Shown here: positions 1-56,812 of the stretch, in pieces
How the letters are laid out: each line of letters opens with the position of its first letter
Position numbering within the stretch: the first letter of the stretch is position 1
Origin: Siphonodentalium dalli
Taxonomy: Eukaryota; Mollusca; Scaphopoda; Gadilida; Siphonodentaliidae
DNA: 64,000 nucleotides
Assembly: GCA_032622095.1 (NCBI GenBank)
Contig: CP136069.1
Span: forward strand, 124,052,126-124,116,125
Reading direction: 5' to 3'
The notes under the pieces: generated by a model
Seen by the model: the letters and a program-made list of their open reading frames with translations, nothing else
What the model was told of the DNA's origin: nothing
The model's database searches: none
Program-made: the position numbers and the translations under genes

Positions 1-1054
1 GCTCTGAGCACCCTTTATCCACTCCCAAATCAACACAAAGGCACGGCGGGGGTTAATCAAGTGATTATTTAATGAGCGTTTGTTTTTGACGAATCGCTAT
101 AAAGAGCGTCTGTTTACCATTCAACGTTATTAGCATCTGCAGAGAGATATACTGGAACATTGAGTGGTTTCCTATGCGGGGAGATTTATTGGATGCCATA
201 GTACTCTTACAACATCATTGTTATAGTATGTATGACACTTAGGTCAGGGCTTAGGGGGTAGTTATAGGCATAATGCTTCTCAGAAATCCCGGTTACAAAC
301 CAACACTCACAATTTCGTATTTACGCAAACGTATATGGGAACAAGTGCTTTCCTATTTTTAGAACGCAACACATGATACCAAACAAAATTACGTCGCGTT
401 GGTGATGGCGTTCACGACGGGATTAATTGACTGTCCGCGAGGATGGGGTTCGCGACGGGATTAACTTTGCGGGGACTATTGGCCATCTCGTAAGGGTGGA
501 CAACCTCTGTCAGGCGCTGCTCAATGGCCACGTGCAGGTTAAATAAAATCATACCTCTTCTGGGTCTGGGCGTGTATAGACATGAGCCTGTTGTGTTCCT
601 AAGAACGCGGAGCGTGTTGCGTTCACAAGAACGCGGATCGGGTAAGTTTTTCCGCCCTAGGTGTGCTCAAACTTCGTATATAAGTTTAAAAACACACGGG
701 GATCGTCGACGTCGCATTGTGTGAAACATTCTTATGTCTGTCGTTCCTAGGAACGGGGGAATTTTGAATCGGGTCAGTCTTAACCTTCAAACGGGTACCC
801 ACAAATTATGTATCGTGACAAATGATCAATTCAAGGTCAAATCGGGTAAAATATTGAAAACCCAATATCGTTCATAGGAAGGGGGGATTTCATCGGGTAA
901 ATTTTTCCGCCAGAAACAAAAAATAAAAAAATAAACATGTCATAAAATGTCATGTTTCGGAAAAAAATCAGCATTAAATTAATATTAAAAAATAAACATG
1001 TCATAAAATGTCATGTTTCGGACAAACGCCGCCGGTGGCGGGCTAACCTGCTAG
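1..1054 (+). mobile_element. Helitron-like element, family A copy 1 (5' end outside window)
   Basis: This is the 3' part of a non-autonomous rolling-circle element. It ends with a GC hairpin (CCGCC, loop GGT, GGCGG) followed by GGCTAACCTG and CTAG at 1051-1054, the Helitron 3' signature. Internal landmarks shared with the next four copies are the ATAAAGAGCG-type boxes, the GTTCCTAGGAAC palindrome near 745, and an A/T-rich stretch with TGTCATGTTTC just before the hairpin. No Rep or helicase ORF is present. Confidence 0.75.
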
Positions 1055-1078
1055 TCTACTATATAATTTGAGACTTCC

Positions 1079-1124
<46 letters not shown>

Positions 1125-1785
1125 ATATGTGTGGGTACTTCATGGAATCCAAAACGCGTGTACAGATTGAGCTCAAATTTCGTATGTAAGTGTAAAATCC
1201 CACCGACACGGCCGTGGTCGCGTTTTGGAGAAGCTCAGAGCACCGTTTCTCCAATCCCAAATCACCGCAATCGGCACTTCGGGGTTAATAGCGTTGGTAT
1301 ATAAAGATCGTTCGTTTTCCGCAGTGTCTATATAAAGAGCGTCGTTTTCGCTATCTACTTATCTGTATGACGGGAGTCTGTAGCTTGTCGCTCGAAATAT
1401 TATGCAGAGGCATTTCACGACGGGAAGCGTTTGTTTTCAATTCAATGCAATGTTATCGCTCGAGCGTTGTCTGTCGTTCCTAGGAAGGGGGGATTTCTAC
1501 GGGTAACTTTTTCCGCCAGAAACAACAAATTTAATTAAAACAGTTTAAAATTAACCAAATTTAAAAATAAAAAAACAATTCAGAAAAACAATATATTAAA
1601 TTTAAAAACATTAAATTCATATTAAAAAATAAAAAATAAAAATAAATAAAAACAAAATAATTTAAAAAATGTCATGTTTCTGACGAAATTTGGTACAAAT
1701 GCAGCACAAGTGTCTCGGAACCTGTTGCAATTGCTTTTTCGAATGGGATGGGACGAATGCCGCCAGTGGCGGGCTAACCTGCTAG
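1055..1785 (+). mobile_element. Helitron-like element, family A copy 2
   Basis: It begins directly after the preceding CTAG with TCTACTATATAATTTGAGAC, matching the Helitron 5' TC rule, and ends with the CCGCC-AGT-GGCGG hairpin and CTAG at 1782-1785. The 5' head carries a TA/TG microsatellite (1080-1130) and a block reading CAAATTTCGTATGTAAGTG, a variant of the box seen near the 5' end of every Helitron family in this window. It is a 731-bp non-autonomous element. Confidence 0.8.
1080..1130. repeat. (TA)n/(TG)n microsatellite
   Basis: A run of TA dinucleotides is followed by TG dinucleotides, inside the 5' head of the family A Helitron. The other A copies carry short versions (TATATATATGTGTG) at the same place, so this is an expansion of an element-encoded seed. 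Confidence 0.9.
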
Positions 1786-2867
1786 TACTATATTTTGAGA
1801 CTTCCGTATATATATATGTGTGTACTTTATAGAATCGAAAACGGATGCACCCATCAAGCTCAAATTTCGTATATAAGTGTAAAAACCCACGTGGATCGTC
1901 CACGTCGCATTTTGGAGAAGCTCAGAGCACCCGTTCTCCAATCACAGTCACAAAACGGCACTGCGGTGGTTAATCAAGTGACGTTGTATATGACGCGTCG
2001 CTATAAAAGAGCGTTTGTTTACAATTCAACGCAACGATATCGCTCGAAATTTAGCATCGAACAAATTTAATTTCTTTTATCAAAAATATAATTACGTGCT
2101 GGACTCTGTCATTTTAAGAATATGTAAGTATTACACACATACACACCAAGTCTGAGCGTAAAATTTTGAAAAATAAGAGTTTTATCGACATAAATCGATT
2201 TTAATGGGAAATCCAATGTTAAAATTTAGCATCGAAAAAATTTAATTTCTTCCATCTAAAACATAATTACGTGTTGGACTGAGTCATTTTAAGAATATAT
2301 AAGTATTACACGCAGTCACACGAAGTCTCAGCTTGAAATTTTGAAAAATAAGAGTTTTATCGACATAAATCGATTTGAATGCGAAATCATGTGTTAATAA
2401 ATTTTGGGGGCTCAGCTGTTCTGTGCAAAATGGTCAACTCGGGACGGGTCAACCGATTGAGCCCAAACTTGCTACCTATGGGTACATTTGTCCTGCAAAT
2501 GTCACGGACGGGTCAAATCGTGTCCCCGATGTGACATTGACCTTCAAACTGGTCAATTCAAGGTCAATTTGGGTAAAACTGGAGGATTTCTGTACTTTTT
2601 TCCTGGGAGTGTTTTGGACGGGTCAAAATTGGGTAAAACTGGCGGATTTCTGTACTTTTGTCCGGGGAGTGCTTTGGACGGGTAAAATCATGACCACGAC
2701 CTGACCTTGACCTACAAAATTGTCAATTCAATGTCAAATCGGGTAAAACTTGCTGATTTCGACGAAATTTGGTACAAATGCAGCACAAGTGTCTCGGAAC
2801 CTGTTGCAATTGCTTTTTCGAACAAAGCCATGAGACGAATGCCGCCAGTGGCGGGCTAACCTGCTAG
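1786..2867 (+). mobile_element. Helitron-like element, family A copy 3
   Basis: The 5' end starts straight after CTAG with TACTATATTTTGAGACTTCC (the expected TC is altered to TA), and the 3' end is the GCCGCCAGTGGCGGGC hairpin followed by CTAG at 2864-2867. The middle differs from copy 2: 2440-2760 holds family C-type material (a GGTCAAATCGTG block and TTCAAGGTCAA-like boxes), so this copy is an A/C mosaic. The block 2060-2390 contains a near-duplicate of about 190 bp around TTTAGCATCGAA. Confidence 0.75.
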
Positions 2868-3882
2868 TCTCCTATATAGTTTGAGACTTCCGTATATATG
2901 TGTATATATATATATGTGTGTGTGGGTACTTGATAGAATCGAAAACGACTGGTCGAATCGAGCTCAAACTTCGTACATAAGGGTAAAAACCCACAGGGAT
3001 CGTCCGCGTCGCATTTTGGACAAGCTCAGAGCACCGCTTCTCTCTTCCAAACCATCAAAATCACCGCAAACGACACTTCGGGGGTTAAGGCATCAACGAT
3101 CTTTATATTGACCGTATTTGGAGTCGTTAACCGATAAACGCTCTTTATTTCCATCGACGTTGCTAAACGGTTAACCATGCGTTCGAAACTACGGACGCAA
3201 AACGCGAAATGCATTTATCTCGATTAAAAAGGCAGAATTAACGTGTTGTGTGATTCTTATGTCTGTCGTTCCTAGGAACGGGGGAATTTTTCAATCATAC
3301 CTCTTTTAGGGACGGGTACTGCGTGTTGTGTGAAAACAAAAAATGCGTGTTGTGTGTTGTGTGATTCTTATGTCTGTCGTTCCTAGGCACGGGGGAAATT
3401 TTCATCGGGTCACTTTTTCTGCCCGATGTACCTTAAATCATACCTCTTTTAGGGACGGGTACTGCGTGTTTAGTGATTCTTATGTTTTCTTCACCGTAAT
3501 CGTGTAAAATAAGGTCTAATCAGGTAAAATATTGAAAAACCAAAAATTCAATAAAAAAAATTTAAAAATCTAGTAAATTAAAAATGCACGGATAAAATAT
3601 TGAAAATTAAAAAATGAATTAAAAAATGAATTTAAAAAATTAAAAATTGTCATGTTTCTGAGTGTAATCGGGTAAAATATTGAAAAACTAAAAATTAAAT
3701 TCAAAAATTAATCCAAAAAATTAATTCAAAAATCCAGTAAATTAAAAATGCACAATTAACTCATGTTATAAAAAAAAATTAATATTATCTATTAACTCAT
3801 TGGAGAAAAAAAATGTAAATTAAAAAAATAAAAAATTGTCATGTTTCTGACGAACGCCACCAGTGGCGGGCTAACCTGCTTG
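2868..3882 (+). mobile_element. Helitron-like element, family A copy 4
   Basis: It begins TCTCCTATATAGTTTGAGAC immediately after the preceding CTAG. The 3' hairpin is intact, but the terminal tetranucleotide reads CTTG (3879-3882) instead of CTAG. It contains three diverged copies of a block with GTTCCTAGG followed by CGGGGGAA and GGGACGGGTACTGCG (3260-3480). The last 400 bases are A/T-rich. Confidence 0.75.
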
Positions 3883-4548
3883 TCTATATATATATTTTGA
3901 GACTTCCGTATATATATATGTGTGTGGGTACTTTATAGAATCGAAAACGACTGGTCGGATCGAGCTCAAACTTCGTCTATAAGGGTAAAAATGCCACGGG
4001 GATCGTCCACGTCGCATTTGGACAAGCTCTGGGCACTCATTCTCCACTCCCAATCAATAAAATCACCGCAAACACGGCGGGGGTTAATAGCGTTGATAGT
4101 TAAAGAGCGTTTCTATCCGCAGTGTAGTTGATAAAGAGCGTGTGTGTGTAATGTGATTCTTACGTCTGGGTCTGGGCGTGTGCGTTAGTATACAGGCATG
4201 AGCGTGTTGTGTGATTCTTACGTACTTAGGGCTTCCTAGGAATGCGGATCGGGTCAGTTTTTCCGCCCTAGGTGATCTTCACTGTGAAACGGGTACCATA
4301 TACGTGTGTGTCCTTTATAGACTCGAACTGATTGAGCTCAAACTTGCTCCCTACGGGAAGTGTCGTGGACAGGTTAAATTGTGACCCCGACCTGACATTG
4401 AAAATGATTAATTCAAGGTCAAACCGGGTAAAAAAAAAATGTAATTAAAAAATTAATTAAAAACATTTGAAATTAAAAAAAATATTTAAAAAAATTAAAA
4501 ATTGTCATGTTTCTGACGAACGCCGCCAGTGGCGGGCTAACCTGCTAG
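3883..4548 (+). mobile_element. Helitron-like element, family A copy 5
   Basis: It starts TCTATATATATATTTTGAGAC after the previous copy's terminus and ends with the CCGCCAGTGGCGG hairpin and CTAG at 4545-4548. It is 666 bp, the shortest A copy. Immediately downstream a family B element begins with no intervening base. Confidence 0.78.
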
Positions 4549-5062
4549 TCTCATATATATTTTGAAGACCTCTGTTTGTCTGTATGTTTGTATGTTTGTC
4601 TGTCTGTCTGTCATTGATACAAATCTACGATTCTCGACCGATCGGGACGAAACTTGGTACGTGTGTGTAGTTTGACCAGGCGGTGGACGTTGTCGTATTG
4701 GTGAGCCCGTGCGGCGCCCGCTTCGCGCATGCGCAGACGAGATATCGGAAACGGGTGGAGCTATCGACTTGAAATTTGTTACGTGAATGTAACTTGCCCC
4801 GGATACGAATTTTATCGGGTCGCCGAGCCCGTGCGACGCCAGCTTCGCGCATGCGCAGACGAGATCTCGGAAACGGGTGGAGCTATCGACTTGAAATTTG
4901 CTATGTGAATGTATCTTGCCCCGGATACGAATTTTATCGGGTCGCCGAGCCCGTGCGACGCCAACTTCGCGCATGCGCAGACCAGCTCTCGGAAACGGGT
5001 GGAGCTATCGACTTGAAATTTGCTTTTTGAATAGCCCGGACAACGTCGGGCTCATCGGCTAG
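4549..5062 (+). mobile_element. Helitron-like element, family B copy 1
   Basis: The 5' end is TCTCATATATATTTTGAAGA, then a (TGTC/TATG)n tract, then GATCGGGACGAAACTTGG. The 3' end is a hairpin (GCCCGGAC-AAC-GTCGGGC) followed by TCATCGG and CTAG at 5059-5062. The body is two 122-bp minisatellite units. Small ORFs on both strands here are translations of the minisatellite and not genes. Confidence 0.82.
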
Positions 5063-5123
5063 TCTCATATATATTTTGAAGACCTCTGTTTGTCTGTCTG
5101 TATGTTTGTCTGTATGTCATTTA
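4758..5123 (+). repeat. 122-bp minisatellite inside Helitron B copy 1
   Basis: The landmark GAGCTATCGACTTGAAATTT occurs at 4758, 4880 and 5002, an exact period of 122. Each unit holds the palindromes GCGCATGCGC and GAGATCTC (altered in the last unit). The last landmark runs directly into the Helitron 3' hairpin; the end of the true repeat is at about 5025. Confidence 0.8.
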
Positions 5124-5812
5124 TACAAATCTACGATTCTCGACCGATCGGGACGAAACTTGGTACGTGTGTGTAGTTTGACCAGGCGGTGTACGTTGTC
5201 GTATTGGCGAGCCCGTGTGGCGCCCGCTTCGCACATCCGCAGACGAGATATCGGAAACGGGTGGAGCTATCGACTTGAAATTTGCTATGTGAATGTATCT
5301 TGCCCCGTATACGAATTTTATCGGGTCGCCGAGCCCGTGCGACGCCAGCTTCGTGCATGCGCAGACGAGATCTCGGAAACGGGTAGAGCTATCGACTTGA
5401 AATTTGGTACGTGAATGTATCTTGCCCCGGATACGAATTTTATCGGGTCGCCGAGCCCGTGCGACGCCAGGTTCGCACATGCGCAGACGAGATCTCGGAA
5501 ACGGGTGGAGGTATCGACTTGAAATTTGGTATGTGAATGTATCTTGCCCCGGATACGAATTTTATCGGGTCGCCGAGCCCGTGCGACGCCAGCTTCGCGC
5601 ATGTGCAGACCAGATCTCGGAAACGGGTGGAGCTATCGACTTGAAATTTGGTATGTGAATGTATCTTGCCCCGGATACGAATTTTATCGGGTCGCCGAGC
5701 CCGTGCGACGCCAGCTTCGCGCATGTGCAGACCAGATCTCGGAAACGGGTGGAGCTATCGACTTGAAATTTGATTTTTGAATAGCCCGGACAACGTCGGG
5801 CTCATCGGCTAG
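5063..5812 (+). mobile_element. Helitron-like element, family B copy 2 with 122-bp units
   Basis: It has the same 5' head as copy 1 and the same hairpin, with CTAG at 5809-5812. Landmarks at 5264, 5386, 5508, 5630 and 5752 are spaced exactly 122 apart, so the body is four full units compared with two in copy 1. Copy number has changed while unit length has not, pointing to recent expansion by unequal exchange or replication slippage. Confidence 0.85.
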
Positions 5813-6441
5813 TCTATTATATATTTTGGGAAATCTGTGTGTGTGTCTGTCTGTTCGCAAAGGACTCGAAAACGGCCGAGCCGATTTCGATGAAACTTGG
5901 TATGTGGGGATACTTTCGGCCGGGGAGTGGCATGGGCCTATGAATTTGCCCGTGCGACGTTACCTTGAAATCGGGTCATTTCAAGGTCAAACGCCCGAGT
6001 ATCACGGGATTTCGATGAAAATTAGTGTCTAGGGATACTTTCGTATGGGGAGTGTCGTAAGCCTATTCGTTTTCCCGTGCGACGTGACCTTGACCTTGAA
6101 ATCGGGTCAATTCAAGGTCAAATCGCGAATTTTGATGGGATTTCGACGAAATTTGATACGTGGGGTCACTTTTGTCCACTGAGTGTTTTGGACGGGTCAA
6201 ATCGTGACCCCGACCTGACCCTGACCTTCAAAATGATCAATTCGAGGTCAAATCGGGTAAAACCGGATGGATTTCGACGGGTACTTTTGTCGGGTACTTT
6301 TGTCCGGGCGGTGTTTTGGACGGGTCAAATCGTGACCCCACCTGACCTTGACCTTCAAAATGGACAATTCAAGGTCAAATCGAGCAATTCGCAGAACAGT
6401 AGAGGGGAAACAACCAGGACGAAGTCGGGTCCACCTGCTAG
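5813..6441 (+). mobile_element. Helitron-like element, family C, plus strand
   Basis: The 5' end is TCTATTATATATTTTGGGAA, then a TGTC tract and GATTTCGATGAAACTTGG. The 3' end reads GGACGAAGTCGGGTCC, ACCTG and CTAG at 6438-6441, followed by host T. The body repeats a GACCTTGACCTT / TTCAAGGTCAAAT module several times. The 174-residue ORF across 6077-6601 runs over the terminus into flanking DNA and is a by-product of the repeats. Confidence 0.8.
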
Positions 6442-7208
6442 TATGTATATATTCTCCATGACGGATCGTCAGAACTTATCTGAAGGGTCAAGGTCATTTT
6501 GCAAGGTCAATGTCATTGTCAACAGTTTCAGTTTTCTCACATTACTACCTATTATTTGTCTTTATGATAAAACTATCTCAATTTGTTGCGACTTTTTGTA
6601 AATCACCAGACAAGGCAAATCGAGTACTATCGACCTAAAAAATTGGGACATTCTCCACCCCCCCAAATTCAAAGATGTTCCCATTCAAATGACGGCTCCC
6701 AGAAAAGATCAAACATGTATAATAATTTCTCGTCCATGCATTTTGTAAATTAAGAGTTATCGACATATTCTGAATAACAAGCACATTAATAAACAATTGA
6801 AGATACAAAGGATTATTACAATAAATGTGTTTTATCGTATAGGGACATGTGCACATGTAGATGGAGATGCTATATAATGCCGCGGAGGCTCGTTTAGCAC
6901 AACGTATCTCAAAGGGATCATCGTCAGTCATTCGCTTCCATTGTGCATCAGTACAATAATCTGGTTTCCGAAGACGGTTTATCCCTAGGGATTCGCAAAG
7001 ATTGAAATCCACATTTTAGACTGAATTGCTTCAAATTTCGAATCAATGGAAATATCTTGCGTCAAAAAGTTAATAATTTATTGCGACAATAATTTTCTGG
7101 TTCATTTAATTCTGCTGATGTCATTGCTTCAGGTTACATCAAGATGATAGCTCGATCTTAAACGTTTGGCGGGCTACGTGAAAAATTAACTAGATATAAG
7201 AGAATTCA
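6442..7208. other. Unique-looking spacer with an unassigned minus-strand ORF
   Basis: This is flanking DNA right of the Helitron array. The minus strand is open from 7012 to 6635 (125 residues). Its first 60 residues (DFNLCESLGINRL, then CTDAQWKRMTDDDPFE and CAKRASAAL) have balanced composition, while the rest is low quality. It could be an old exon or a transposase fragment; I do not recognise it. I see no splice sites I would defend. Confidence 0.25.
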
Positions 7209-12562: not shown

Positions 12563-13471
12563 TTATTTATTATAGTACAGCTTGTTTATTTGAGTTATCA
12601 GTTTGCAGATTCCACGCATTACCTTCGTGTTTGGGTTGTTAAATAGTTGCGCTAATTTCCAGTTACTCGGGTGTGTGTAGTAATATTTTGCTATATAGTT
12701 TCGCCTTAAATCGTTCAAGGCATCGCATTCAAGAAGTGTATGTAGTTCATTAACTGGCGCGTCTTTGTCGCACAATTTGCAGTTTTTTTCATCATCGGGT
12801 AAGTTCATCCAGTCTCCTGTTTCTATTGGTAAGCGATGATTTCGAGTACGGAATTTAAAAATTAAAATAGAATCGTTTGTATGCAATTTCGAAAAATATA
12901 CCTCTTCTCGGTAGATTGTTTTGATATATTGATACGTAATATACTTGTCAGAAGAATACAATGTTTGCCACCAACTTTGAATATAAAGATCTTGAAGTTG
13001 CTGTTTTGTAGCCTCGCAGAATAGTTTCAGGGGATTGGGAGCGTGTGTAGCCCATGTGCCACTGAGCCCAAGTTCATTTAATAAAGAGTAAATATAATTG
13101 ATCCATTTGGGTTTGTTATTAACATATCTGTCCCTTTGGTTGTATCTACTACACAGTGTCCAGTATAGATTATACGCGATCTTGTTTCTACTTCCGCTCA
13201 CTAAGTGACCCCAATAATTCAACATCTGATGTTTGATTTTCATCGTGACTGGGAATATCCCAAGTTCATCGTATATCATAGCATTTGGCGTGGACCGTTT
13301 TGCTTTGAGTATATATTTAAGGAACCATAATTCCAATCGCTGTATAATATTGTTGTTCCTAAAACCCCAAACTTCCGCTCCATAAGTCAATATCGGGACA
13401 ATCGATATTTGATAGAGTTCGAGAACGCATTTTAAAGGGAGATTCATGGTTTGCATCTTGCTTGTTGACAT
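12563..13471 (-). pseudogene. LINE ORF2 C-terminal region with CCHC knuckle
   Basis: The 302-residue frame begins in the thumb region (NLPLKCVLELYQISIVPILT, YGAEVWGFRN) and continues to NHRLPIETGDWM and the cysteine-histidine knuckle CKLCDKDAPVNELHTLLECD (C-x2-C, H, C). It ends INKLYYNK at 12563. It overlaps the upstream frame by 28 bases, and one frameshift near 13460 joins them. A knuckle at the extreme C terminus, thought to help bind the element RNA, recurs in the fragments at 16.8, 38.1, 50.1 and 52.9 kb. Confidence 0.85.
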
Positions 13472-14895
13472 CGTATTTTGTTTTCTTCGACAAAAGAGCC
13501 GTTACTACTAAATGTCGTTCCAATGTACTTATACGTTTTCGTTACTTCAATCTGCTCACCATTCAGCATAAAATGCACATCTTTTTTCCTTTTGTTTCCA
13601 AATATAACTACATTACTTTTTGCATTATTGATTTCCAATTTCCAGATACGGCAATATTCGGCATAATCATTTAACATGCATTGTAGTCCTTCCGCAGAAT
13701 ACGATAAAAGAACGGTATCGTCAGCATACAGGAGGCAGAACAATTTCAAGTAATGAAGGCTCGAACCACAAGGCACGTCTGCTAGAACTATACCGCAATT
13801 TTCGTTTTTGCGTAAATACATTTCTAAGTCGTTTGTGTATATGGAAAAAAGGAGAGGGGAAAGATTAACACCCTGTCGGACGCCCGTTTCGCATGGAAAT
13901 AATGCTGATATAACACCATTATGTGCAACACAAGACTTTATGTTCTTATACATATTTATTATCACGTTTAGAATCGTACCTTCTATTCCAATATGCAATC
14001 GTTTTCTCCACAGTCCTACCCGCGAGACCCGATCGAAAGCCTTCGATAAATCGATGAAAGCACAATATAAGCTACGCTTGCGGGCTTTAACAAGGTCAAT
14101 AAGACTATTTAATGAGAATATATGATCCAGTGTCGAATAATGTTTTCTAAATCCAGCTTGATTTTCTTCTAATAGTTTGTTGGTTTCTAGGAAGCTTTGG
14201 ATACGTTCGCTCAAGATAGATGTGAACACCTTTGATATACAACTTACTAGAGTGATTGGTCGATAGTTATTTGGCTTTTTCGGGTCATTTGATTTAAATA
14301 TCGGCTGAATAATACCAATTCCCCAGTCGTCTGGTACAATACCGCTTTTTAGAATCAGGTTAAAATATGTCTGAAGATGAGTCGTTAGTTTTCCAGAAGC
14401 CATTTTAATGTATTCATTTTTAATTTCATCTATTCCACTGGCCTTACCGAATTTCAAGCTGCGTAGCGCGTTATCGATCTCTTGGAGTTCAATGTCACGG
14501 TCCAGATGAGACATATACCATGTGAACTGGAGATATTCATCATAACTGTGATCTACGTTTGTCGAATTTGTTTCTGCAAAATGATCATAAAATTGGTTAA
14601 TTGTGGGCGATTCCACAGGTTGAGTATTTGCGCGCTTCTTTCCAACTAATTTCCAGTAGTCGCGAACGTTCGTGCGTTTCAAATTTAAAATATTGTCCTG
14701 CAATGTCATATTATAATTTGCTCTGCACCTTTTTATTTTATTTTTATATGCATTTCGTATGTTGGTCAGATCTATTCTGTTCGCTTCTGTGCGGCTACGC
14801 TGATAACGTTTCAGTGTGGTGCGATATTGTTTTCTGATATTATTACAATCTTTCGAGAACCACGGTTTCGTATTCGATTTGTTTTTCGGTTTGAT
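13444..14895 (-). pseudogene. LINE ORF2 reverse transcriptase domain
   Basis: Directly after the TAA, in the same frame, the linker reads KPWFSKDCNNIRKQYR, so that stop is a single point lesion. The reverse transcriptase then shows the expected order: ASGIDEIKNEYIK, NNYRPITLVSCISKVF, FIDLSKAFDRV (first catalytic Asp), GVRQGVNLSPLLFSIYTNDL, and LLYADDTVLLS with an intact YADD. KLEINNAKSNVVIFGNK and YKYIGTTFSSNG mark the thumb side. The frame breaks near 13460. This enzyme would copy its own RNA into DNA at a nicked site. Apart from the stop and the frameshift the domain is well preserved, so the insertion is not very old. Clade not assigned. Confidence 0.9.
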
Positions 14896-17900: not shown

Positions 17901-18593
17901 CTAGAAGGTGACCCGACTTCGTCCGGGCTTTGACCTTGAATTGACCATTTTGAAGGTCAAGGTCAGGTGGGGTCAAACACCAACACCCCAAAAATGGTGG
18001 AAATCGGCCCAGCGGATACCGGGAAATCGTATATAAACGCGCCTCATATACACACGCTCATTAATTATCAAGTTTCAACGTAAAGATAAATTACCATCGG
18101 TGCCCGAGATATCGCCAAGACGTCTGAAACAGTCAAATGCATCGGCCGGTTAAGCGTTAACGTGATCTAACGTTATGACCTCTAACGACGTCATAGAAGT
18201 TACGCATTGTTTTTATCCTGATGGAAGATAGTACCACTTCTTCTTGATAATTGAGGCAGATAACTAAAACGGATACATGCGCATTATATATCGTTGGAAA
18301 GAGGAAACACGAAAGATTCTCACAGTGTCATTATTATGACTGGCATTTTATTATTCGCGCTGTTTCGAATCGATTTGTAAGCACCGAACTCAAATGAAAG
18401 TCCCGTAACACAGCGCAAAATCATATTTGACCTCGGCACGTGAAAAGTTGACCTCGGATCTGAATATCAATAGGCCTATGTCACCCCCGGCCGAAAATAC
18501 CCCCACATACCAAGTTTCATCGAAATCGGGTCGGCCGTTTTCGAGTTCATCGCGAACACACAGACACACAGATCTGCCAAAATATATAATAGA
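17901..18593 (-). mobile_element. Helitron-like element, family C, minus strand
   Basis: Read on the minus strand it starts TCTATTATATATTTTGGCAG at 18593 and ends with hairpin GCCCGGACGAAGTCGGGT, CACCTT and CTAG at 17901-17904, followed by host T. CACACAGACACACAGATC at 18570 is the family's TGTC tract. The central 400 bp (18040-18450) is not shared with the plus-strand C copy. It directly abuts the family A terminus at 18594. Confidence 0.8.
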
Positions 18594-18717
18594 CTAGCAG
18601 GTTAGCCCGCCACTGGCGTGGTTGGTCAGAAACATGACATTTTAAAAATTATTTTGTTTGTATTTAATTTTGTTTTTATTTTTTAATATTAATTTAATGT
18701 TTTTTAAATTTAATATA

Positions 18718-19583
18718 TTTTGTAATACGACCCTGCCTGACTATGGTTAAAAGCCATGTCCTGATTGGCCAGTGGCCCGAGTTACCATGGCTATCTCGTT
18801 CCAGTTTTGTGGTACAATTCTACTTTTTCCAATTGTACCACGAAAAAAATCGGTTTATTCAGATCGCCGCACGCGACTTTTCCCGTCTTTTCTAACTCCG
18901 CGCAAACGGGGCATCAACGGAGTACACCCGCACCCGTAACTCTTTGAATTTTGCTACATCTTGACAATCTTGCGAATTTTCTAGCGATTTGTCGCTTGAA
19001 ACCAGTTTGGTTGCCAATGAATATGGTCCAAATGATGTTATGTTATATTGATATATGTTACGACCAAAGAAAGTTACTTAATAAGTATATTAAATGACAA
19101 AATAAATCCATGGGGCCGGGCTGTGCATTCGTCGATTCGAATCTCGATCATATTCGATATTTCGGAATCAAGTTGAAAATGAAAGCGTGTGTTCACCAGT
19201 ACAGAAGGGGAATAAGATTAGTTTAGTAAACTAGAACACTTAGATCGCTTAGATGATCATATTCATGTCCCAACAACGTTCAAAACAGAAATGACGGCAA
19301 TCGTATTTCATGTACAATTTAAATGAAACGCACGGGCGCCGCTGAAAACACATCGTTTTTTAGCCAATCACAACGATTATTTCTAGAAGAGGTGCCTCGA
19401 AAAGTCAACGGAGGAATTTCATAACAAGACAAGACATTACCAGAGTACTCCATGCAATGAAATCGAGTACGCCCAATACGAATTACACCACGAAATGTTT
19501 TCTCACCTGAGACCGAAAAAGCGCAGTATTTCGTTGACTATTCAGTCGAATTGTGACCATAAACTTTCAGTCGTATTACAAAA
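18718..19583. mobile_element. TIR element inserted in Helitron A
   Basis: TTTTGTAATACGAC at 18718-18731 is matched by its exact complement at 19570-19583, a 14-bp TIR around an 866-bp body without a coding region I would accept. A short internal inverted repeat lies at 18805-18846 (TTTTGTGGTACAATT / AATTGTACCACGAAAA). No target duplication is evident, because a palindrome follows directly on the right. Confidence 0.55.
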
Positions 19584-19728
19584 GAAATAAATACACGGTG
19601 TATCGGTGTGTATGGTCAAGTTGTACCACAAAAAACTGATTGTAGGACTCCGCTACGCGTCGTCCTACAATCAGTTTTTTGTGGTACAACTTGACCATAC
19701 ACACCTCTACACCGTGTATTTATTTCTT
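19582..19728. repeat. Large near-perfect palindrome, 66-bp arms
   Basis: The arms 19582-19648 and 19662-19728 pair almost completely: AAGAAATAAATACACGGTGT, GTGTGTATGGTCAAGTTGTA and CCACAAAAAACTGATTGTAG recur as complements. The loop is 13 nt. Only a 3-nt asymmetry (TCG against CTC) breaks each arm. The sequence GTACCACAAAAAACTGATT is also related to 18831-18850. Confidence 0.9.
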
Positions 19729-20433
19729 AATTGTTTCTGAATTTTTTAATATTTATTAAATTTTAATTGTTTTAATTAAATTTGTTGTTTCTGGCGGAAA
19801 AATTTACCCGATGAAATCCCCCCTTCCTAGGAACGACAGACAACGCATTCTTTTTTTTCTTTTTTTTTAACCTGCCCGTACCCGTCCTAATGTCGTGAAA
19901 TATCTCTGCATAATATTTCGAGTGATAACATTGCATTGAATTGAAAACAAACACTTCCCGTCGTGAAATCTCTCTACGATAACATTGTATTGAATTGAAA
20001 ACAAACGCTTCCCGTCGGGAAATCTCTCTGCATAATATTTCGAGTCTGCCGTACGTACCCGTCGTAATGTCGTGAAATCTCTCTGCATAATATTTCGAGC
20101 GATAACATTGCATTGAATTGAAAACAAACGCTTCCCGTCGTGAAATCTCCGTCATACAGATAAGTAGATAGCGAAAACGACGCTCTTTATACAGACACTG
20201 CGGAAAACGAACGCTCTTTATATATCAACGCTATTAACCCCGAAGTGCCGATTGCGGTGATTTTGATGATTGGGAAGGGAGAAACGGTGCTCTGAGCTTC
20301 TCCAAAACGCGATCACGGCGGTGTCCATGGGATTTTACACTTATATACGAAATTTGAGCTCGATCCGACCAGGCTTTTTCGATTCTATAAAGTACACACA
20401 TATATATATACGGAAGTCTCAAAATATATAGTA

Positions 20434-20889
20434 CTAGCAGGTTAGCCCGCCACCGGCGGCTTGTCCGAAACATGACATTTTTTTATATATTTTTTTTTTA
20501 TTTTTAGCTCCACGCGTTTCAATAAGACAAATTTGTACCCGGTAGCTCCACCCGTTTCCGAGATCAGGTCTTCGCATGCGCGAAGCTGGCGTCGCACGGG
20601 CTCGGCGACCCGATAAAATTTGTACCCGGCGCAAGATACATTCACATAGCAAATTTCAAGTCGATAGCTCCACCCGTTTCCGAGATCTCGTCTGCGCATG
20701 CGCTGCACGGGCGTCGCACGGGCTCGCCAATACGACAACGACCACCGCCTGGTCAAACTACACACACGTACCAAGTTCCGTCCCGATCGGTCGAGAATCG
20801 TAGATTTGTATGAAGTACAACACACACACAAACATAAATATATAAGAGAGATATGTAAATTAGATAGATTGTATCAAAATATATAGGAG
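20434..20889 (-). mobile_element. Chimeric Helitron: family B head and body, family A tail
   Basis: On the minus strand the 5' end (CTCCTATATATTTTGATACA, near 20889) and the GATCGGGACGGAACTTGG head with two partial 122-bp units are family B. From about 20510 on, the tail switches to the A type: TGTCATGTTTC, hairpin CCGCCGGTGGCGGGC, CTAG (20434-20437). The junction lies in a T-rich run on the plus strand. Confidence 0.75.
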
Positions 20890-21036
20890 ATATATGTAAA
20901 TGATCTACACACCATTACTGGTGTTTGTCAAAGTTTAGGGGGGTATATCAATACTCATTCACGATCATATCATTGATGTCCGGAGGGTGTGGGCTATCTC
21001 TCGAATACACGGAGTTCTCAAAATATATAGGATAGA
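20890..21036 (-). mobile_element. Short Helitron 5'-end fragment
   Basis: The minus strand begins TCTATCCTATATATTTTGAG at 21036 and keeps AACTCCGTGTATTCGAG, i.e. an A-like head. A CACCAGTAATGGTG hairpin lies near 20910, but the expected CTAG is not found, so the 3' end is lost or altered. Confidence 0.5.
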
Positions 21037-21430
21037 CTAGCAGGTTAGCCCGCCACTGGCGGCATTCGTCCCATGGCTTTGGTCGATCCATTAATTTTAG
21101 TTTTTCAATGTAACCCCGTACAGGACCGGGCTACTCAAAAACCAAATTTCAAGTCGATAGCTCCACCCGTTTCCGAGATCTGGTCTGCGCATGCGCGAAT
21201 CTGGCGTCGCACGGGCTCGGCGATCCGATAAAATTCGTATCCGGGGCAAGATACATGCACATACCAAATTTCAAGTCGATAGCTCCACCCGTTTCCGATA
21301 TCTCGTCTGCGCATGCGCTGCACGGGTGTCGCACGGGCTCGCCAATACGACAGCGACGACCACCTGGTCAAACTACACTCACGTACCAAGTTTCGCCCCG
21401 ATCGGTCGAGGTGTTGGTTATTGATGCAAA
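21037..21430 (-). mobile_element. Second chimeric Helitron (B body, A tail)
   Basis: The tail is family A (CCGCCAGTGGCGGGC hairpin, CTAG 21037-21040). The body from 21130 to 21410 is family B with the landmark pair GAGCTATCGACTTG 122 bp apart. A relic of a B-type 3' hairpin (GTAGCCCGGTCCTG) remains at about 21120-21145, between body and tail, as if an A tail had been added downstream of a dead B terminus. Confidence 0.7.
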
Positions 21431-22426
21431 AGACGAAATTGTGAGTGTTGGTCAATAGTCCCCGCCGTGAACCTCATCGTCGCAAAGAGCGGACAGTCAA
21501 TTAACCCCGTTGTGAACCTCAATCACCAACGCGACGTAAACATGTGTTGCGTTCTAAAAATAGGAAAGCACTTTCTCTCTGCATAATTCTGCAGATGCTA
21601 ATAACGTTGCTCCCCGTAGGTAGCAATATCGTTGTTGTTGATATTTACGGCTTGGGGGCTATTTTCTTATTTAGCAAGTTTGAGCTCAATCGGTTAGAGT
21701 CTATAAAGGACACACTCATATATATGACACTTCCCGTAGGTAGCAAGTTTGAGCTCAATCGGCATTCCCTGGAATTTCCCGTAGATTGGCAGATTCCAGT
21801 AGCTTTATAACGGTATATCTGGGGAGAAATCTGATGCTATATTCGTGATTATCTGGGATGATTTCGGTATATACCGTCAGGTCGGGGTCACGATTTGACC
21901 CGTCCAAAACACTCACTTGACAAAAGTACCCACATGTATCAAATTTCGTCGAAATCCCATCAAAATTGGCGATTTGACCTTGAATTGACCCGATTTCAAG
22001 GTCACGTCGCACGGGCAAATGAATATGCTTATGAGACTCCCCATACGAATGTACCCCGCATACCAAGTTTCATTAAATCCCGTAATATTTGGGCATTTAA
22101 CCTTGAAATGACCCGATTTCAAGGTCAATGTCACGTCGCACGGACAAATTAATAGGTTTATGCCACTCCCCGGCCGAAGATACCCACACATACCAAGTTT
22201 CATTGAAATCCCGTGATATTCGGGCGTTTGACCTTGAAATTACCCGATTTCAAGGTCAAGGTCACGTCGCACAGGTAAATTAATAGGCCCATGCCACCCC
22301 CCCCCCCCCGGCCGAAAATACCCCCACATACCAAGTTTCATCGAAATCGGCTGGGCCGTTTTCGAGTTCATCGCGAACACACAGACACACAGACACACAA
22401 ACAGATCTTCCAAAATATATAATAGA
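21431..22426 (-). mobile_element. Helitron family C head with family A-derived remainder
   Basis: The 5' end on the minus strand is A followed by TCTATTATATATTTTGGAAG (22426), giving the expected A/TC junction. 21880-22320 holds four GTCACGTCGCAC modules with extended AAGGTCA half-sites. From 21780 down to 21431 it changes to family A sequence matching 300-490 of the window in reverse. No hairpin plus CTAG was found at the left end. Confidence 0.65.
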
Positions 22427-23808
22427 TAGATTTTGAGATGTGAATGGTCGTAATTTATTGTCATATTTTGTGCTTGCAATGACTCCAGTTGCCTTAGTCA
22501 ACCGCAGATATGTGAAAGCAGCTTTATATTGTTCAGTGTGAGATCCATTCCGTAAATTCAATTCAATTTAATTATGCAATGCATCATATGGCGATATTAC
22601 AGATCCGCGATGTGTTTTGACATTGCCGCTCCCAACACTGTGTACACAGCGGGAGTGGCATCTGTGGGGTCTGTGCAAAATGGTGTAATAGTCAGCACGA
22701 AATCATTTGCGTTATCAAGAATTATGTTAAGGCGCTAAGTGAACACTATGTTATACCATGCTCCATGCAAAATTGATCAATGCAATGATTCTTCATTCTC
22801 ACAGAAAAATAAACTTCTTTTATAATTTATCGGTCATTCCAAAGTTTCTGTGTATGCATGGCTGGAAAATTCCGCATTCTCCTCGAAAACCAGGCATTCA
22901 CCCCGGGAATAAACAAAATGATCCAACGAGACAGTGTTGACCAATCAGAGGTTGAATTGAGTGCACGGCGTCATCTTGCGAAATCAAAACATAAACAATT
23001 CGATTACTATTGATCTCACAACAACGCCCAACGTGCCTGTGTTGATATCTATCAAACGTACATGCTATAATTAAAGTACTTAGACACTGATTGTGGGATA
23101 TCTATTTATATGGATGTATATTTAAACACATTGTGTTGCTGTCAACTGAGGATTCGGAAATAGGTTTGTGCAATTGTAAACAATTATAGCTGGGGGCGAC
23201 TCAACCACATTGAACGTATGTGGGAGTGTATGGGGTTGCAACATAACCACGTGATATATGTGAACCATGCAGTTATGTTCAGCAAGTGAGAGTATTTTAT
23301 AAACCAGGTGTATACTGAGGATTCATACCCTGCTGTTAGTCGGGATTCGGGATTCACACCTCGTTATTCCAGAATACCTGGTATTCGGGATTAAAAAAAA
23401 TACTGGTAAGCTACATTAATAGCGGCAATTTATGATATCTGATGGCTAGAACGGTTGTTTGCATGCAGACATTTTTACCCCATTTCGGATATCGTTCTAT
23501 AGGTTACCCCCGTGACAGGCATTCGCAGAAATTAATAGGTGGTATTGAAGTGTGAAATCTCTGTCCTCTATATCACATATTTTCTGAGCTGGTATTCGAT
23601 ATTCACCCCGTGTTACCTGATATTCAGGGGAGACACACTCACATGTTAATGCCCCTCTATTGTTTCACGAGAGATCGATTCTGTAATATGTTATCCCTGC
23701 AGTTTAAGAATTATATATTCACATACGGCGCGATGTACGAAGTTTGTTTATTATACTCACGCATGCATCCACGGCATATACTCAAGTAATACACAAAAGA
23801 AGCATTGT
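22427..23808. other. Spacer with weak short repeats
   Basis: No gene seen. The phrase (G)GTATTC(G)GGATTCA(C)ACC recurs loosely at about 22895, 23315-23390, 23590-23630 and again near 50740, suggesting a worn dispersed repeat. ORFs here are short and unremarkable. Confidence 0.4.
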
Positions 23809-32519: not shown

Positions 32520-32830
32520 ATGCTCGAACGTGCGAGCCCTTACGTTCGAACGTGCGAGCCATTACGTTCGAACTGCGAGCTCTTGCGTTCGAACGTGCGA
32601 GCCATTACGTTCGAACGTGCTAGCTCTTACGTTCGAACGTGTGAGCCCTTGCGTTCGAACAGCGAGCCCTTACATTCGAACGTGCGAGCTCTTGCGTTCG
32701 AACGTGCGAGCCCTTACGGTCGAACGTGCGAGCCTTTGCGTTCTAACGTGCGAACCGTTGCGTTCGAACGTGCGAACTCTTACGTTCCCACGTGCGAGTA
32801 TTTACGTTCCCACGTGGGAACTTTTACACA
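32520..32830 (+). repeat. 22-bp minisatellite, left array (13 units)
   Basis: The unit is GTTCGAACGTGCGAGCCCTT plus AC. Two of the 13 units are 21 bp. Because 22 is one more than a multiple of three, each frame cycles through all three readings and gives a 22-residue super-repeat (FERASPYVRTCEPLRSNVRA and variants). Frames on both strands stay open, so the 184-residue ORF at 32430-32984, which begins with a hydrophobic LHWLCLFLAVAGLG stretch, need not be a gene. Confidence 0.88.
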
Positions 32831-32877
32831 CTCTTTCAACATGGACGCGAGGCATGCTGCTAATAGGGACCTAAGAT

Positions 32878-33104
32878 CTCGCACGTTCGAACGCAAGGGC
32901 TCGCACGTTCGAACGCAAGGGCTCGCACGTTCGAACGCAAGGGCTCGCACGTTTGAACGCAAGAGCTCGCACGTTCGAACGTAAGAGCTCGCACGTTCGA
33001 ACACAAGGGCTCGCACGTTCGAACCCAAGGGCTCGCACGTTCGAACGCAAGGGCTCGCACGTTCGAACGCATGGGCTCGCATGTTCGAACGTAAGAACTC
33101 TTGG
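32878..33104 (-). repeat. 22-bp minisatellite, right array in inverted orientation (10 units)
   Basis: Ten 22-bp units of CGCACGTTCGAACGCAAGGG plus CT, the reverse complement of the left array. The spacer between the arrays is about 48 bp. Together they could fold into a stem of more than 200 bp. The minus-strand frames here repeat the same 22-residue peptide. Confidence 0.88.
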
Positions 33105-38027: not shown

Positions 38028-39722
38028 TCACGTGTCACACAGTGCCTGTTTAATAAATATACATACCCTCTTCATAATTTCTAGATTATCAATAGACAGA
38101 AGACCAATAAATTTATCAAGGTTGGGAAGCTCCCAATAATACGATGGTATGAATTTCTCTCTGATAACCTGGAATTTTTTGCATACGATAATAAAATGAT
38201 ATTCATCACCGAGACCCTCCCCACATGCGGAGCAGAGTCTTTGTTCTCGTGACACGGCTTTCCATCTACCACTCTCAATGGCCAAACGATGGTTTGTTGT
38301 TCTAATCTTTGTCATGTATTCTGCCAGATATGTAGGCAATTTTAGCAAATAGCCACTCATTTTAAGGTCGGACTTTATTTCTTTGTAAAGGATACCCTTT
38401 GACGAAGAAAGAATATTTTGGCGCCATTCTAATTCAAATTGACTTGTCATGTCCATTTTAAATTGTCTGATGGTCCCCTTAGACAAGGGTGAGTTAGCTG
38501 AGCATGAACTTTTGGCATTTACCTCTTCGAAAATCACCTGTATAAATTCAAACCATTTCAAATAAGTACTGGGAGACTCAGATAACACTCGCGACAATTT
38601 ATATAGTTTCTTCACTAGATTTGAACCATATTCAGAAACGGTTCTTGACCAAAATGCCAGTGCACGGCATTTGATCTCAATTCCAAGTGGGTGTCGTCCT
38701 GTTTCTCCGTACACCATGTAATTCGGTGTACTGGACTTCATACCAAGTAGAATTTTGCTAAATTTTAAGTGGACGAATTCGATGTCCTTGGTGGGCTCAT
38801 AACACCAAACCTCACTACCATATAGCAATATGGGGGCTATTTTGTAATCAAAGAGAGTTAACATCATATCTAAAGGGAGATTTAGTGATCTCACCTTATT
38901 AAATAAAGCATACATTGCTTTCAGGGCAAGGTTCTTGTTTTCTTTAATAGATCTACAGAAACGACCATTGTAGAAAAATTTAACGCCTAAATAGGTGAAT
39001 TCCTTCGTGATTTCTAGTGTATGTTCTTTAAATATAAATATCGGAAGATTTTTTTGCATTTTTTTGCAAAAAATTACAACTTTTGTTTTCTTTGTATTAA
39101 CTTCGAGTTTCCATGCATCTGAATAGTCAGCAAATGCTTGGAGTGCACGATGCATACTGCTTTCGTTATCAGCCATCAATACAGTGTCATCAGCATATAA
39201 CATACATAATAATTTAACATATATTCCAATATTCTCTTGAAAAAGATCACTCAAGTATGTCAAACCGTCTATAGCACAGTCAGATAAAAAGTCGCTAATA
39301 TCATCAATATAGAGGGAAAATAGGAGAGGGGACATAAGTTCACCTTGAAATAAACCTACGTTGCTCGAAAAGAAATCTGACAAACCCTCGTTGCTTTTTA
39401 CACATGACTTTATCTTGCCATACATACTTCTGACGACATTAAACAGTTTACCATTGATATTTCGTTCCAATAATTTAACCCAGAGTCCATCTCTCCAGAC
39501 GCTATCAAAAGCCTTTCGGAAATCAATGAAAGTACAGTAAAGTTTTTTCCCACTAGATAAATACATATCGATGATAGTCTGTAGGACATATATGTTATCA
39601 ATAGTAGAGTGTTTACGCCGGAAACCCGTTTGATACTCGTTGATTAAATGCTCTTCATCGGAAAAGTTAGTTAATCTTTTGTTCATGATAGAAGTGAACA
39701 TCTTAGCTATACAGCTTAACAA
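38028..39722 (-). pseudogene. LINE ORF2, reverse transcriptase and CCHC half
   Basis: The frame is open for 564 residues. The palm carries TFIDFRKAFDSVWRDGLW (catalytic Asp), VGLFQGELMSPLLFSLYI (FQG where RQG is usual), and MLYADDTVLMA with an intact YADD. The thumb shows WKLEVNTKKTKVVIFCKK, YLGVKFFYNGRF and YGSEVWCYE. The C-terminal knuckle is CSACGEGLGDEYHFIIVCKK. Upstream on the coding strand the reading continues in this frame as PIYKKSGDRDNPDSYRGITL before the first listed residue, so the real domain start is not at 39722. Length and order are those of a complete ORF2 C-terminal part. The frame is closed off from the endonuclease half by a small deletion. Confidence 0.92.
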
Positions 39723-39724
39723 TG

Positions 39725-41885
39725 TTATCCCACGATACGAATCTGGGTTATCACGATCTCCTGATTTTTTGTAAATAGGTCATCTGGGAAGCACCCAGTA
39801 TTTAGGATAAAGTTAAATAGTTTGCAATATAAGGGTGTCATGATGTCAATTGATGCTTTCAAATATTCATTGGGTATGAGATCAATTCCTGGAGATTTAT
39901 TTGCTTTCAAATTCGCAGTAGCCACTCTAATTTCTTCTTCAGTTATCGGATCGTTTAAGGGGCCCGAAAATCGTTCGTCATAGATTTCATCGATTTTGTT
40001 CCCAAGTTTGTCGATTAGGTCGTCAGGCAAGCTGAGGCCCTTAAAATGACCATATAATGTGTCTAACGGAATTTTACATTCTTGTTTCCTAATTCGGCTA
40101 GATTTAGAATGTTTGTCTAGAGTTTTCCAAAATTCTTTGCTAGATGTTCGGCTTAATGATTTCAATTCTTCCACAATATTTTTTCGCTCACATTTAATTT
40201 TTGAATCCATCGTTTGTCTGAAACGTTTCGCGGATTCTCTCATTTTTATTTTATTGTCGGCGCTTCTACACTTCTTGTATGCGCGCTTCGCCAAGTGAAA
40301 TTGTTTTCGCATATGTTTGCAATCTTTGTCAAACCATGACTTATTTGTTTCGCGTTTTTCTTTCCAATTCTTATTGACATTAACTTTTCCAAATGTTTCA
40401 ATACCAGCGCCCATTAATATATTTACTATGCGTGTGCATACCGATTTGGATGCGTTTTCAAATTCCTTCGAAGACAGTTTTTCCAAATCTCGGTTAAGCT
40501 CGATCAATAAGGTGCGGTCAATATTATCAACGAATGCATTCCCTTTCTCTGGGGCCCATCTCCTGGGGTATCCCACAGATTTGTCAACATTTGAGTGTGG
40601 TGCATCGTCGTTAGGTTCGTTTGGAAGTAAACTAACATCAGGTATGCAGAGTTCCAAAAACAACGAACTGTGAATATCAGAATTTAGGGGGGAAAAGTCG
40701 TTCACTCTGAAATTAGATATCATGTGAAGGACATTCTTTGACCCGAGAAAATAATCAACTACACTACAATCATTACAAGTTAATTGACCAATTCCATCGT
40801 CTTCACCATACCTACCATTTAGAATGTATATATTAGTGCTCATGCATAACGCGATCAATTTGTAACCGTAGCTAGTGGGCTTTCCCAAGTCTTGCGAACA
40901 CCTCATAGTTAAGTCACCGTTAGGATCACCGCTCGCCGTAGAACAATCGAGAATGTAATCTAACAGTGACTCCGAATTCATGGATTCAAACAAGTGCCCT
41001 AGTGCATCCACGTCATATGGTCGGAAAACGTCGTCCAATGTCTTTGTCCGTGCGTTAAAATCGCCCGCTAGTATAACGGCATCTGAATCTGTTCTCACCC
41101 GACGAACTTCGTTTTCCAACTGAGTACCCCAATCATCGTTTGCGTACCTAGTACCGGACGGTGGTACATACACCGACCCAATGAGCAAACTAGTGTGTGA
41201 ATTGATAATTAATCTCGCCCACACAACATTAGAGCATTCAGAGTCGACAATAGATATATCGCAATTTAGTGACGATCTAGAAGCCAAGAGAATACCACCG
41301 CACCGTTTCCCTGAACCAATCTTCTTGCCTCTCGAGACACGGATGTCAAAATTTGGAATGTCTAATTCATCTTCCTTAAAGGCTTTAGTTTCTGACAAGC
41401 ATAATATGTCGTATTCATCTAACATTTGGACAAAATCTGGATATCGAACTCGCTTTTCTAACCCACACACGTTCAGTGCTAAAATTCGTAATTTCGCGGT
41501 TGAATGACCTGACCCTGACGAGTGGTGTTCATCTGATTTCGGATTCTGGGGTTCATATAAATTGTTTTCGGCATTGCCGCTTTCCCCCGAGTTATTTCCC
41601 ATAGGATGACACTCGGGGGAAGCGGTGATACAGAAAAGTTCGTTCATCTCAGAATGTAGATCACTGCACTCGTTTGAATCCGTATCATAATCGATATTCA
41701 AATATTCAGAAATTTGTATATCACAATCGGCAATAAAGCAATCAACAATGTCAATATCATCAATTATAAAACAATCATCAATATCTGTAACTGAACTATG
41801 CTTATTGTGTGGGGCACAAGCCGAATGTGTACTTCTATTGTTCCGACTGACACAACAGGATACGGGTACATCTTCTAGAATAATT
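39725..41885 (-). pseudogene. LINE ORF2, endonuclease and palm N-terminal half
   Basis: The frame is open from a TGA at 41885-41887; the first in-frame ATG is near 41648. After an acidic N terminus comes the endonuclease: LRILALNVCGL, DILCLSETKAF (catalytic Glu), GSVYVPPSGT, ILAGDFNARTK, SVVDYFLGS and SDIHSSLFLE (an S-D-x-H variant of SDH). The linker holds WFDKDCKHMRKQF and FWKTLDKHSK; the palm begins KSPGIDLIPNEYLK and stops at GCFPDD. The next expected segment (roughly seven residues before PIYKKSG) is missing and the frame shifts, so a deletion of about 20 bp inactivated an otherwise near-complete element. The protein would have nicked DNA and copied its own RNA there. It is the same lineage as the 12-15 kb copy. 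Confidence 0.92.
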
Positions 41886-42571: not shown

Positions 42572-43008
42572 TCTCATATATATTTTGAAGACCTCTGTTT
42601 TGTCTGTATGTTTGTTTGTCTGTATGTCTGTCATTTATACAAATTTACGATTCTCGACCGATCGGGACGAAACTTGGTACGTGTGTGTAGTTTGACCAGG
42701 CGGTCGACGTTGTCGTATTGGCGAGCCCGTGTGGCGCCCGCTTCGCGCATGCACAGACGAAATCTCGGAAACGGGTGGAGCTATCGACTTGAAATTTGGT
42801 ATGTGAATGTATCTTGCCCCGGATACGAATTTTATCGGGTCGCCGAGCCCGTTCGACGCCAGCTTCGCACATGCGCAGACCAGAGCCCGTGCGAGCCCGT
42901 GCGACGCCAGCTTCGCGCATGCGCAGACCAGATCTCGGAAACGGGTAGAGCTATCGACTTGAAATTTGGTTTTTGAATAGCCCGGACAACGTCGGGCTCA
43001 TCGGCTAG
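42572..43008 (+). mobile_element. Complete Helitron-like element, family B
   Basis: Host A at 42571, then TCTCATATATATTTTGAAGA; the end is the hairpin GCCCGGACAACGTCGGGC, TCATCGG and CTAG at 43005-43008, then host T at 43009. It is 437 bp, with one full and one rearranged 122-bp unit (the GAGCCCGTGCGA segment is locally triplicated at 42845-42905). It is the best stand-alone example of the family here and shows insertion between A and T. Confidence 0.88.
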
Positions 43009-56370: not shown

Positions 56371-56812
56371 CTAGCTGATGTGCCCGACTTAGTCGGGGCT
56401 ATTTAGGGATTTCTTTGCCAGAAACATGCCTATATGAGCGTATATGAACGAGGTCAAGGTCAATGTCAAGGACACGGTCGCACGGGGACCCGTTCATATT
56501 GTGCTCGGGATCAAGTAGGCCTACATACCAAATTTGAGTCGGATTTGTCGAGGTCCAGAAACATGCCTATATGAGCGTATTTGAGCTAGGTCAAGGTCAA
56601 GATCAAGGACACGATCGCACGTGAAATTGGACCCGCGCATATTGTTGCCGGGTTCAAAGTAGGCCTACATACTAAATTTGAATCGGATCGGTCCAGCAGT
56701 TTTCGATTCTATAACACACATACATACACACATACATACATACACACATACATATATAGATAAAATACATACATACATACAGACAGACAGAAGTTCCAAA
56801 ATATAAAATAGA
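56371..56812 (-). mobile_element. Complete Helitron-like element, family D, minus strand
   Basis: On the minus strand it starts TCTATTTTATATTTTGGAAC after A (complement of 56813), then a (TGTC/TATG)n tract, and ends GCCCCGACTAAGTCGGGC, ACATCAG, CTAG (56371-56374) and T. It is 442 bp. The body has two copies of a module with AGGTCAAGGTCAA and CGCACGTG/CGCACGGG, about 120 bp apart, each with CAAATTTGAGTCGGAT-like sequence. Confidence 0.88.

Follow-up and report, generated by a model that had tools for sequence, protein, structure and literature searches.

Tandem Helitrons are known from plants, bats, Drosophila and silkworm, and abutting Helitron insertions in bats have been documented with empty-site evidence. 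Evidence for rolling-circle transposition has been seen in head-to-tail junctions and tandem arrays of this kind (PMC5876387). Here we analyse a 64,000-nucleotide window (the whole stretch examined) from the scaphopod mollusc Siphonodentalium dalli, contig CP136069.1, called C9 below (C9:124052126-124116125; genome of 2.227 Gb in nine contigs). Its first 6441 positions are occupied by a head-to-tail array of non-autonomous Helitron-like elements, and these were probably stacked by separate insertions into the left (5′) ends of resident copies. If many arrays are stepwise left-end insertions, the argument for rolling-circle transposition drawn from head-to-tail arrays weakens, and arrays would preserve the order of transposition and the choice of target in a form readable from assembled genomes.

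Several described systems resemble this locus in part. Helibat/Helraiser of Myotis shares the TC...CTAG ends, the A^T target (a caret marks the point of insertion) and AT-rich surroundings that are strongest on the 3′ side (PMC4778049, PMC5876387), whereas in S. dalli the array has nine units, junctions number in the thousands, families are mixed and a TCTA scar is paired with a truncated junction. Tandem arrays also occur in plant centromeres (Xiong et al. 2016, as described in PMC12628747 and PMC5148889), where they often include multiple 5′ ends with a single 3′ end and are interpreted as rolling-circle products; the units of the S. dalli window, in contrast, retain both ends and are unlike their neighbours. 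In Fusarium and Metarhizium, FoHeli-type Helitrons, whose ends are non-canonical, form three tandem copies for which repeated 5′-end insertion and rolling-circle replication are named as alternatives, the authors leaving the choice undecided (PMC5148889). Closely spaced heterologous Helitrons are known from bat and maize, in a passage that gives neither scar nor count (PMC4067079). Dimers of transposable elements in Drosophila, attributed to insertion-site preference (McGurk and Barbash, as told in PMC12628747), are similar in involving repeated insertion at a favoured site but, in that account, are not specific to Helitron ends. A pairing of scars with truncations was not found in a full-text literature search, a weak negative since most subscription papers lie outside such a search.

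Abutting units in the window and in the genome

As the preliminary description of this DNA had it, the array consists of eight abutting plus-strand units, five of family A, two of family B and one of family C, and at all seven internal junctions (7/7) one unit follows the other without an intervening host base. Directly left of the first A unit, A1, lies a ninth unit, C0, of C type (C9:124051275-124051997). The left edge of the array (locus L006) reads host ...GTTTA, TCTA, C0 and then A1 starting TAC: A1 is without its first TCTA, and a single TCTA, together with the host A, stands before C0. The same description speaks of TC and CTAG as the ends of the units, which holds for most of them. TC is present at six of the seven unit starts inside the window, the exception being the truncated A3, which begins TACTATATTTTG, and CTAG closes seven of the eight units, A4 ending in CTTG. 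On the minus strand, a D-type unit, a truncated A and a C abut in that order between 21036 and 17901. The A-to-C abutment noted there earlier is real (18594/18593; a slash marks a junction), and two others are found at 20434/20433 and 21037/21036.

The termini recur throughout the genome, as had been anticipated. Counted as exact motifs, of which the A 5′ motif covers one of two A subtypes, there are 1900 A-A, 7405 B-B, 765 A-B and 470 B-A junctions. The reversed controls gave 0 for all four, so that the A-A junction cannot be ascribed to chance. The exact A 3′ motif alone occurs 11,842 times. We also sampled 19 loci (L007-L025) from the list of A ends in the order of contig C1: the 38 A-type 3′ ends recognised there with a loose motif were followed directly by a recognised unit in 24 cases and by host sequence in 11, three being unclear. 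AT accounts for 0.099 of the dinucleotides in the sample, corresponding to about 2.2e8 A^T sites in the whole genome; given resident ends in the tens of thousands, we estimate that roughly one random A^T insertion in 10,000 would strike such an end. Since the A-B, B-A and B-C junctions join different families, they cannot be concatemers of one element.

TCTA scars and truncated left ends

Many A elements start TCTATACTATATATTTTG, and many A left ends that follow a CTAG are missing exactly TCTA, which often turns up to the left of the inserted block. In the sample, 94 A-type cores were recognised with the loose motif: TCTA stands in front of 31 and TC in front of 38, 22 follow CTAG directly and three follow other sequence. 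The 22 (19 TAC, three TAT), five of which (L032-L036) were chosen for carrying that junction, thus comprise all but three of the 25 cores with neither TCTA nor TC in front. By eye, the order is A/TCTA/C/TAC-A/T at L023 and CTAG/TCTA/C/TAC at L022:33-894, while at L026 three surplus TCTA occur together with as many truncated junctions, TAC in two cases and TAT in one, in nesting order; at all three loci scars and truncations balance one to one.

TCTA precedes a B unit at 649 sites genome-wide, 94 of them on contig C1, and truncated B/TAC-A junctions number 210, with 29 on C1. On this contig, B/A junctions were searched for a same-strand TCTA/B located 0.15-1.6 kb upstream, the control being the other B/A junctions, from the exact B-A count. 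It was present upstream of 19 of the 29 truncated junctions compared to 3 of 43 others; on the mirror (downstream) side the figures were 3/29 and 3/43. A first count, made before the rule was tested on new junctions, had given 8/12 against 3/43, and the junctions unseen when the rule was made gave 11/17 (mirror side 2/17; Fisher test against 3/43, 9e-6). Five of these 17 sit at 11.4-12.5-kb steps at C1:190.19-190.23 Mb and, unaligned, resemble one tandem duplication; 10 of the remaining 12 have a scar. It follows from this pairing that the truncated junctions arose when a copy inserted into the left end of a Helitron already in place. Insertion at existing ends, which the preliminary description had placed at 3′ ends, is therefore upheld for this class at left (5′) ends, the 3′-end version being a less likely possibility. 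Slippage as the origin of the surplus TCTA was rejected, as it would not pair with truncations, although it could account for missing scars.

In the mechanism we propose, a resident left end would offer A^TC, composed of the host A and the element's TC, as an A^T target, and A elements with the start given above would offer a second, TCTA^TAC, four bases in. Integration at the first would produce the exact abutment CTAG/TC with zero bases left. At the second, TCTA would stay to the left of the newcomer and the truncated resident, CTAG/TAC, would lie on its right. Over repeated rounds, mixed arrays would result, and a TCTA scar would be expected to the left of each truncated junction. It had been argued that independent insertion leaves a T and needs an A before the TC. 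This is incorrect: together, the host A and the first T of the resident recreate an A^T site, so that exact abutment needs no concatemer. We consider it likely that the array was stacked up as related non-autonomous Helitrons inserted, each separately, into resident left ends. The exact junctions of this window would then have arisen by left-end insertion too. Mixed exact junctions fit insertion at A^TC, and would also fit insertion at a right end, CTAG^T.

Among about 100 A-A junctions listed and inspected by eye, 21 read CTAG/TAC, three CTAG/TAT and five otherwise, the remainder beginning TC. None used A^T sites deeper in the left end, and none of 100 B-B junctions listed lay at TCTCA^TAT (also by eye). 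That the deeper sites are unused suggests that the insertion site is tied to the register of the left end, and generic AT-rich targeting as sole cause was rejected on this ground. Helraiser favours AT-rich sequence, above all 3′ of the insertion point (PMC4778049). A resident left end offers such a 3′ side, and it would be the left-end register, beyond AT richness alone, that is chosen. Tentatively, we suggest that a transposase on a resident left end could integrate at its own donor nick (A/TC or G/TC). Left ends of relatives would then be hot targets, arrays would grow by family-to-family stacking, and brackets of scar and truncation would record the order of insertion.

At L026, L027 and L029, the TAT junctions open into units that are 96-98% alike over their matching parts and are probably one duplicated lineage; no TCTA scar was found for the TAT junction of L029. 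Extra TCT or TCTATCT pieces falling outside the TCTA rule were also seen: CTAG/TCTATCTTCTA (L029), CTAG/TCTTCTATCC (L028) and CTAG/TCTTCTCTTC (L008, L035).

Contrary observations and alternative origins

A number of observations, in this and the following paragraphs, weigh against stacked left-end insertion. Ten of the 29 truncated junctions on contig C1 have no TCTA/B in range, in a count that is blind to scars before non-B units, and such a lack would be expected where the inserted block begins with A, C or D. The three of 43 other B/A junctions with an upstream TCTA and B unit become six when the limit is set at 2 kb (22/29 for truncated junctions). The window array has two truncated junctions, A1 and A3, but one TCTA scar. 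Exact junctions by themselves cannot separate left-end from right-end insertion. Finally, same-family junctions are in large excess over mixed ones, with an odds ratio of about 39 calculated from the four genome-wide counts.

One alternative is composite transposition, in which a nested pair, for example a D in an A left end, is mobilised whole past the inner CTAG and spreads ready-made junctions. A truncated A indeed follows 7 of 13 D units (by eye), four of the seven (L032, L034, L035 and L036) having been selected for that junction. Such an origin presupposes an initial nested insertion, however, and left neighbours vary between loci; we regard it as possible but not the probable source of the array.

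Insertion exactly at a resident right end, CTAG^T, appears unlikely. It would explain the duplicated locus L015/L016: the flanks are 97-98% identical, and L016 has one 807-bp D unit, precisely between the CTAG of the locus's A1 unit and T, which L015 lacks. At L024/L025, similarly, an extra unit C′ (798 bp) lies between B and C at the CTAG/TC junction, the C of L024 being 97.8% identical to the right C of L025 and 66.5% to C′. Both pairs fit either a gain at G^T, not A^T, or a precise loss via short shared ends; for L015/L016 the loss could have passed through about 20 bp common to both 3′ ends. Moreover, G^T is not an A^T target, and right-end insertion does not predict scars and truncated left ends. 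In a search for a third copy that would polarise L015/L016, the query was covered, among 40 scored matches, by the two known copies only. L026/L027 may be a third duplicate pair differing by a unit. Right of the A/D units (L016:5401 onward, L015:5014 onward), another dispersed repeat begins, many matches starting at query base 1-5, and a further repeat family may abut there.

Rolling-circle concatemers, in which the CTAG stop is missed and several linked copies of one element integrate in a single event, are less likely still. They yield exact CTAG/TC junctions, and they would accommodate the preponderance of B-B and A-A over mixed junctions as well as the identity of certain neighbours: three adjoining A units at L012:3788-7163 (minus strand) are 100% identical over 1125 bp, and two 1068-bp units at L027 are 99.8% alike. 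These neighbours, like a repeat of about 3.9 kb containing several units at L030 (99.5%), are either recent concatemers or products of unequal exchange (crossing-over) or duplication. Same-family junctions, above all B-B, may thus include concatemers or duplications. Concatemers are nevertheless unable to produce the A-B, B-A and B-C junctions and do not predict the pairing of TCTA scars with truncated junctions. For the A units of the window, whose A-A junctions had been said to fit them, they were rejected on unit similarity. Successive A neighbours are 55.1, 49.4, 50.6 and 71.6% identical end to end, and each A unit matches some other locus better than its neighbour (best matches among 74 sampled units: A1 92.7, A2 83.6, A3 59.2, A4 73.8 and A5 92.8%). 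B1 and B2 are 90.9% identical over 506 aligned bases, with few other B copies for comparison.

An origin of the window array by segmental tandem duplication, or through faulty assembly, is highly improbable: the L030 repeat and the regularly stepped truncated junctions near 190.2 Mb of contig C1 are of the kind expected from duplication, but the window units are unlike in sequence and length, the junction types recur at hundreds to thousands of places and the genome is assembled in nine long contigs.

Helitron identity, candidate partner and other features

The elements that would have been stacked by left-end insertion carry TATATATTTTGRRR close to the left end, and A and B units have a hairpin placed 6-9 nt before CTAG. 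Its folding energy is clear for B (z -1.86 and -2.56) and weak for A (z -0.88), while unit C1 has none that is convincing (z 0.73). Single copies flanked as A/TC...CTAG/T, without target duplication, were read from their flanks for a B element at 42572-43008 of the window and at L013, L015 and L018. The 5′ TC, the CTRR end with its hairpin, insertion at A^T and a partner with Rep and PIF1-type domains together support classification of the window units as canonical Helitron-like elements. Helentrons and DINE-1 elements are characterized by TT insertion and subterminal inverted repeats; the A^T flanks argue against membership of that group. The sole frame of at least 150 aa in the array units (6077-6601) has no Pfam match, and an Rfam scan of the window returned nothing reaching the gathering threshold.

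RepHel genes occur in the genome: at least 151 matches to Helitron_like_N were counted, with 150 of the 457 candidates scored, and among the matches listed over a dozen sit in open frames of at least 1600 aa. One of them belongs to a candidate autonomous element of about 8.7 kb at C1:13739545-13748219 on the minus strand (L028:6546 to L029:220). It has a B-like 5′ end (88% over 236 bp), a B-like 3′ end (97% over 33 bp), a PIF1 helicase match (1.1e-68) and Helitron_like_N in a 1614-aa open frame. The element was read at both ends, and the continuity of the frame across the middle 5 kb rests on the 1614-aa open-frame call. It sits in an abutting array, next to a D unit, and is probably an autonomous B-type Helitron that is itself a member of that array. 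A RepHel transposase resembling this candidate may move all the families.

Table 1. Helitron-like units and associated features in the window (positions are those of the window)
Feature	Position	Strand	Remarks
A1, 3′ part	1..1054	+	5′ end TACTATATATTTTGAG without TCTA, 128 bp left of the window, adjoins C0 (L006:4873-6054)
A2, 731 bp	1055..1785	+	Ends TCTACTATATAA...CCTGCTAG
A3, 1082 bp	1786..2867	+	5′ end TACTATATTTTG without TC (truncated class); 3′ end CTAG
A4, 1015 bp	2868..3882	+	TCTCCTATATAG...CCTGCTTG; 3′ end CTTG, not CTAG
A5, 666 bp	3883..4548	+	TCTATATATATATTTTG...CTAG
A5 3′ end, 5-bp hairpin CCGCC/GGCGG and CTAG	4515..4548	+	z -0.88; 41/200 shuffles fold equally well
B1, 514 bp	4549..5062	+	TCTCATATATATTTTGAAGACC...CGGCTAG
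B1 3′ end, 6-bp hairpin AGCCCG/CGGGCT and CTAG	5030..5062	+	z -2.56
B2, 750 bp	5063..5812	+	Termini as B1; more internal 122-bp repeats than B1
Unit C1, 629 bp	5813..6441	+	TCTATTATATATTTTGG...CCTGCTAG, then host T
C-type unit, 693 bp	17901..18593	-	Adjoins A unit at 18594
A unit, 1840 bp	18594..20433	-	5′ end truncated: TACTATATATTTTG
D-type unit, 603 bp	20434..21036	-	Starts TCTATCCTATATATTTTG
Mixed unit, 1390 bp	21037..22426	-	5′ end C-type, 3′ end A-type; assigned by its ends
Surplus TCTA (scar)	22427..22430	-	Between host A (22431) and the unit starting at 22426

Elsewhere in the window, a single Helitron-like element of a different family occupies 56371-56812 on the minus strand (A/TCTATTTTATATTTTGG...CAGCTAG/T). 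A retrotransposon frame with reverse transcriptase and endonuclease domains by Pfam lies at 38028-41701 (minus strand). The frames at 12563-14709 (minus) and 51818-53152 (plus) read like retrotransposon frames as well, with no Pfam hits in the portions scanned (12563-13471 and 51818-53149). Two arrays of 22-bp repeats are present at 32524-33095, the second resembling the reverse complement of the first.

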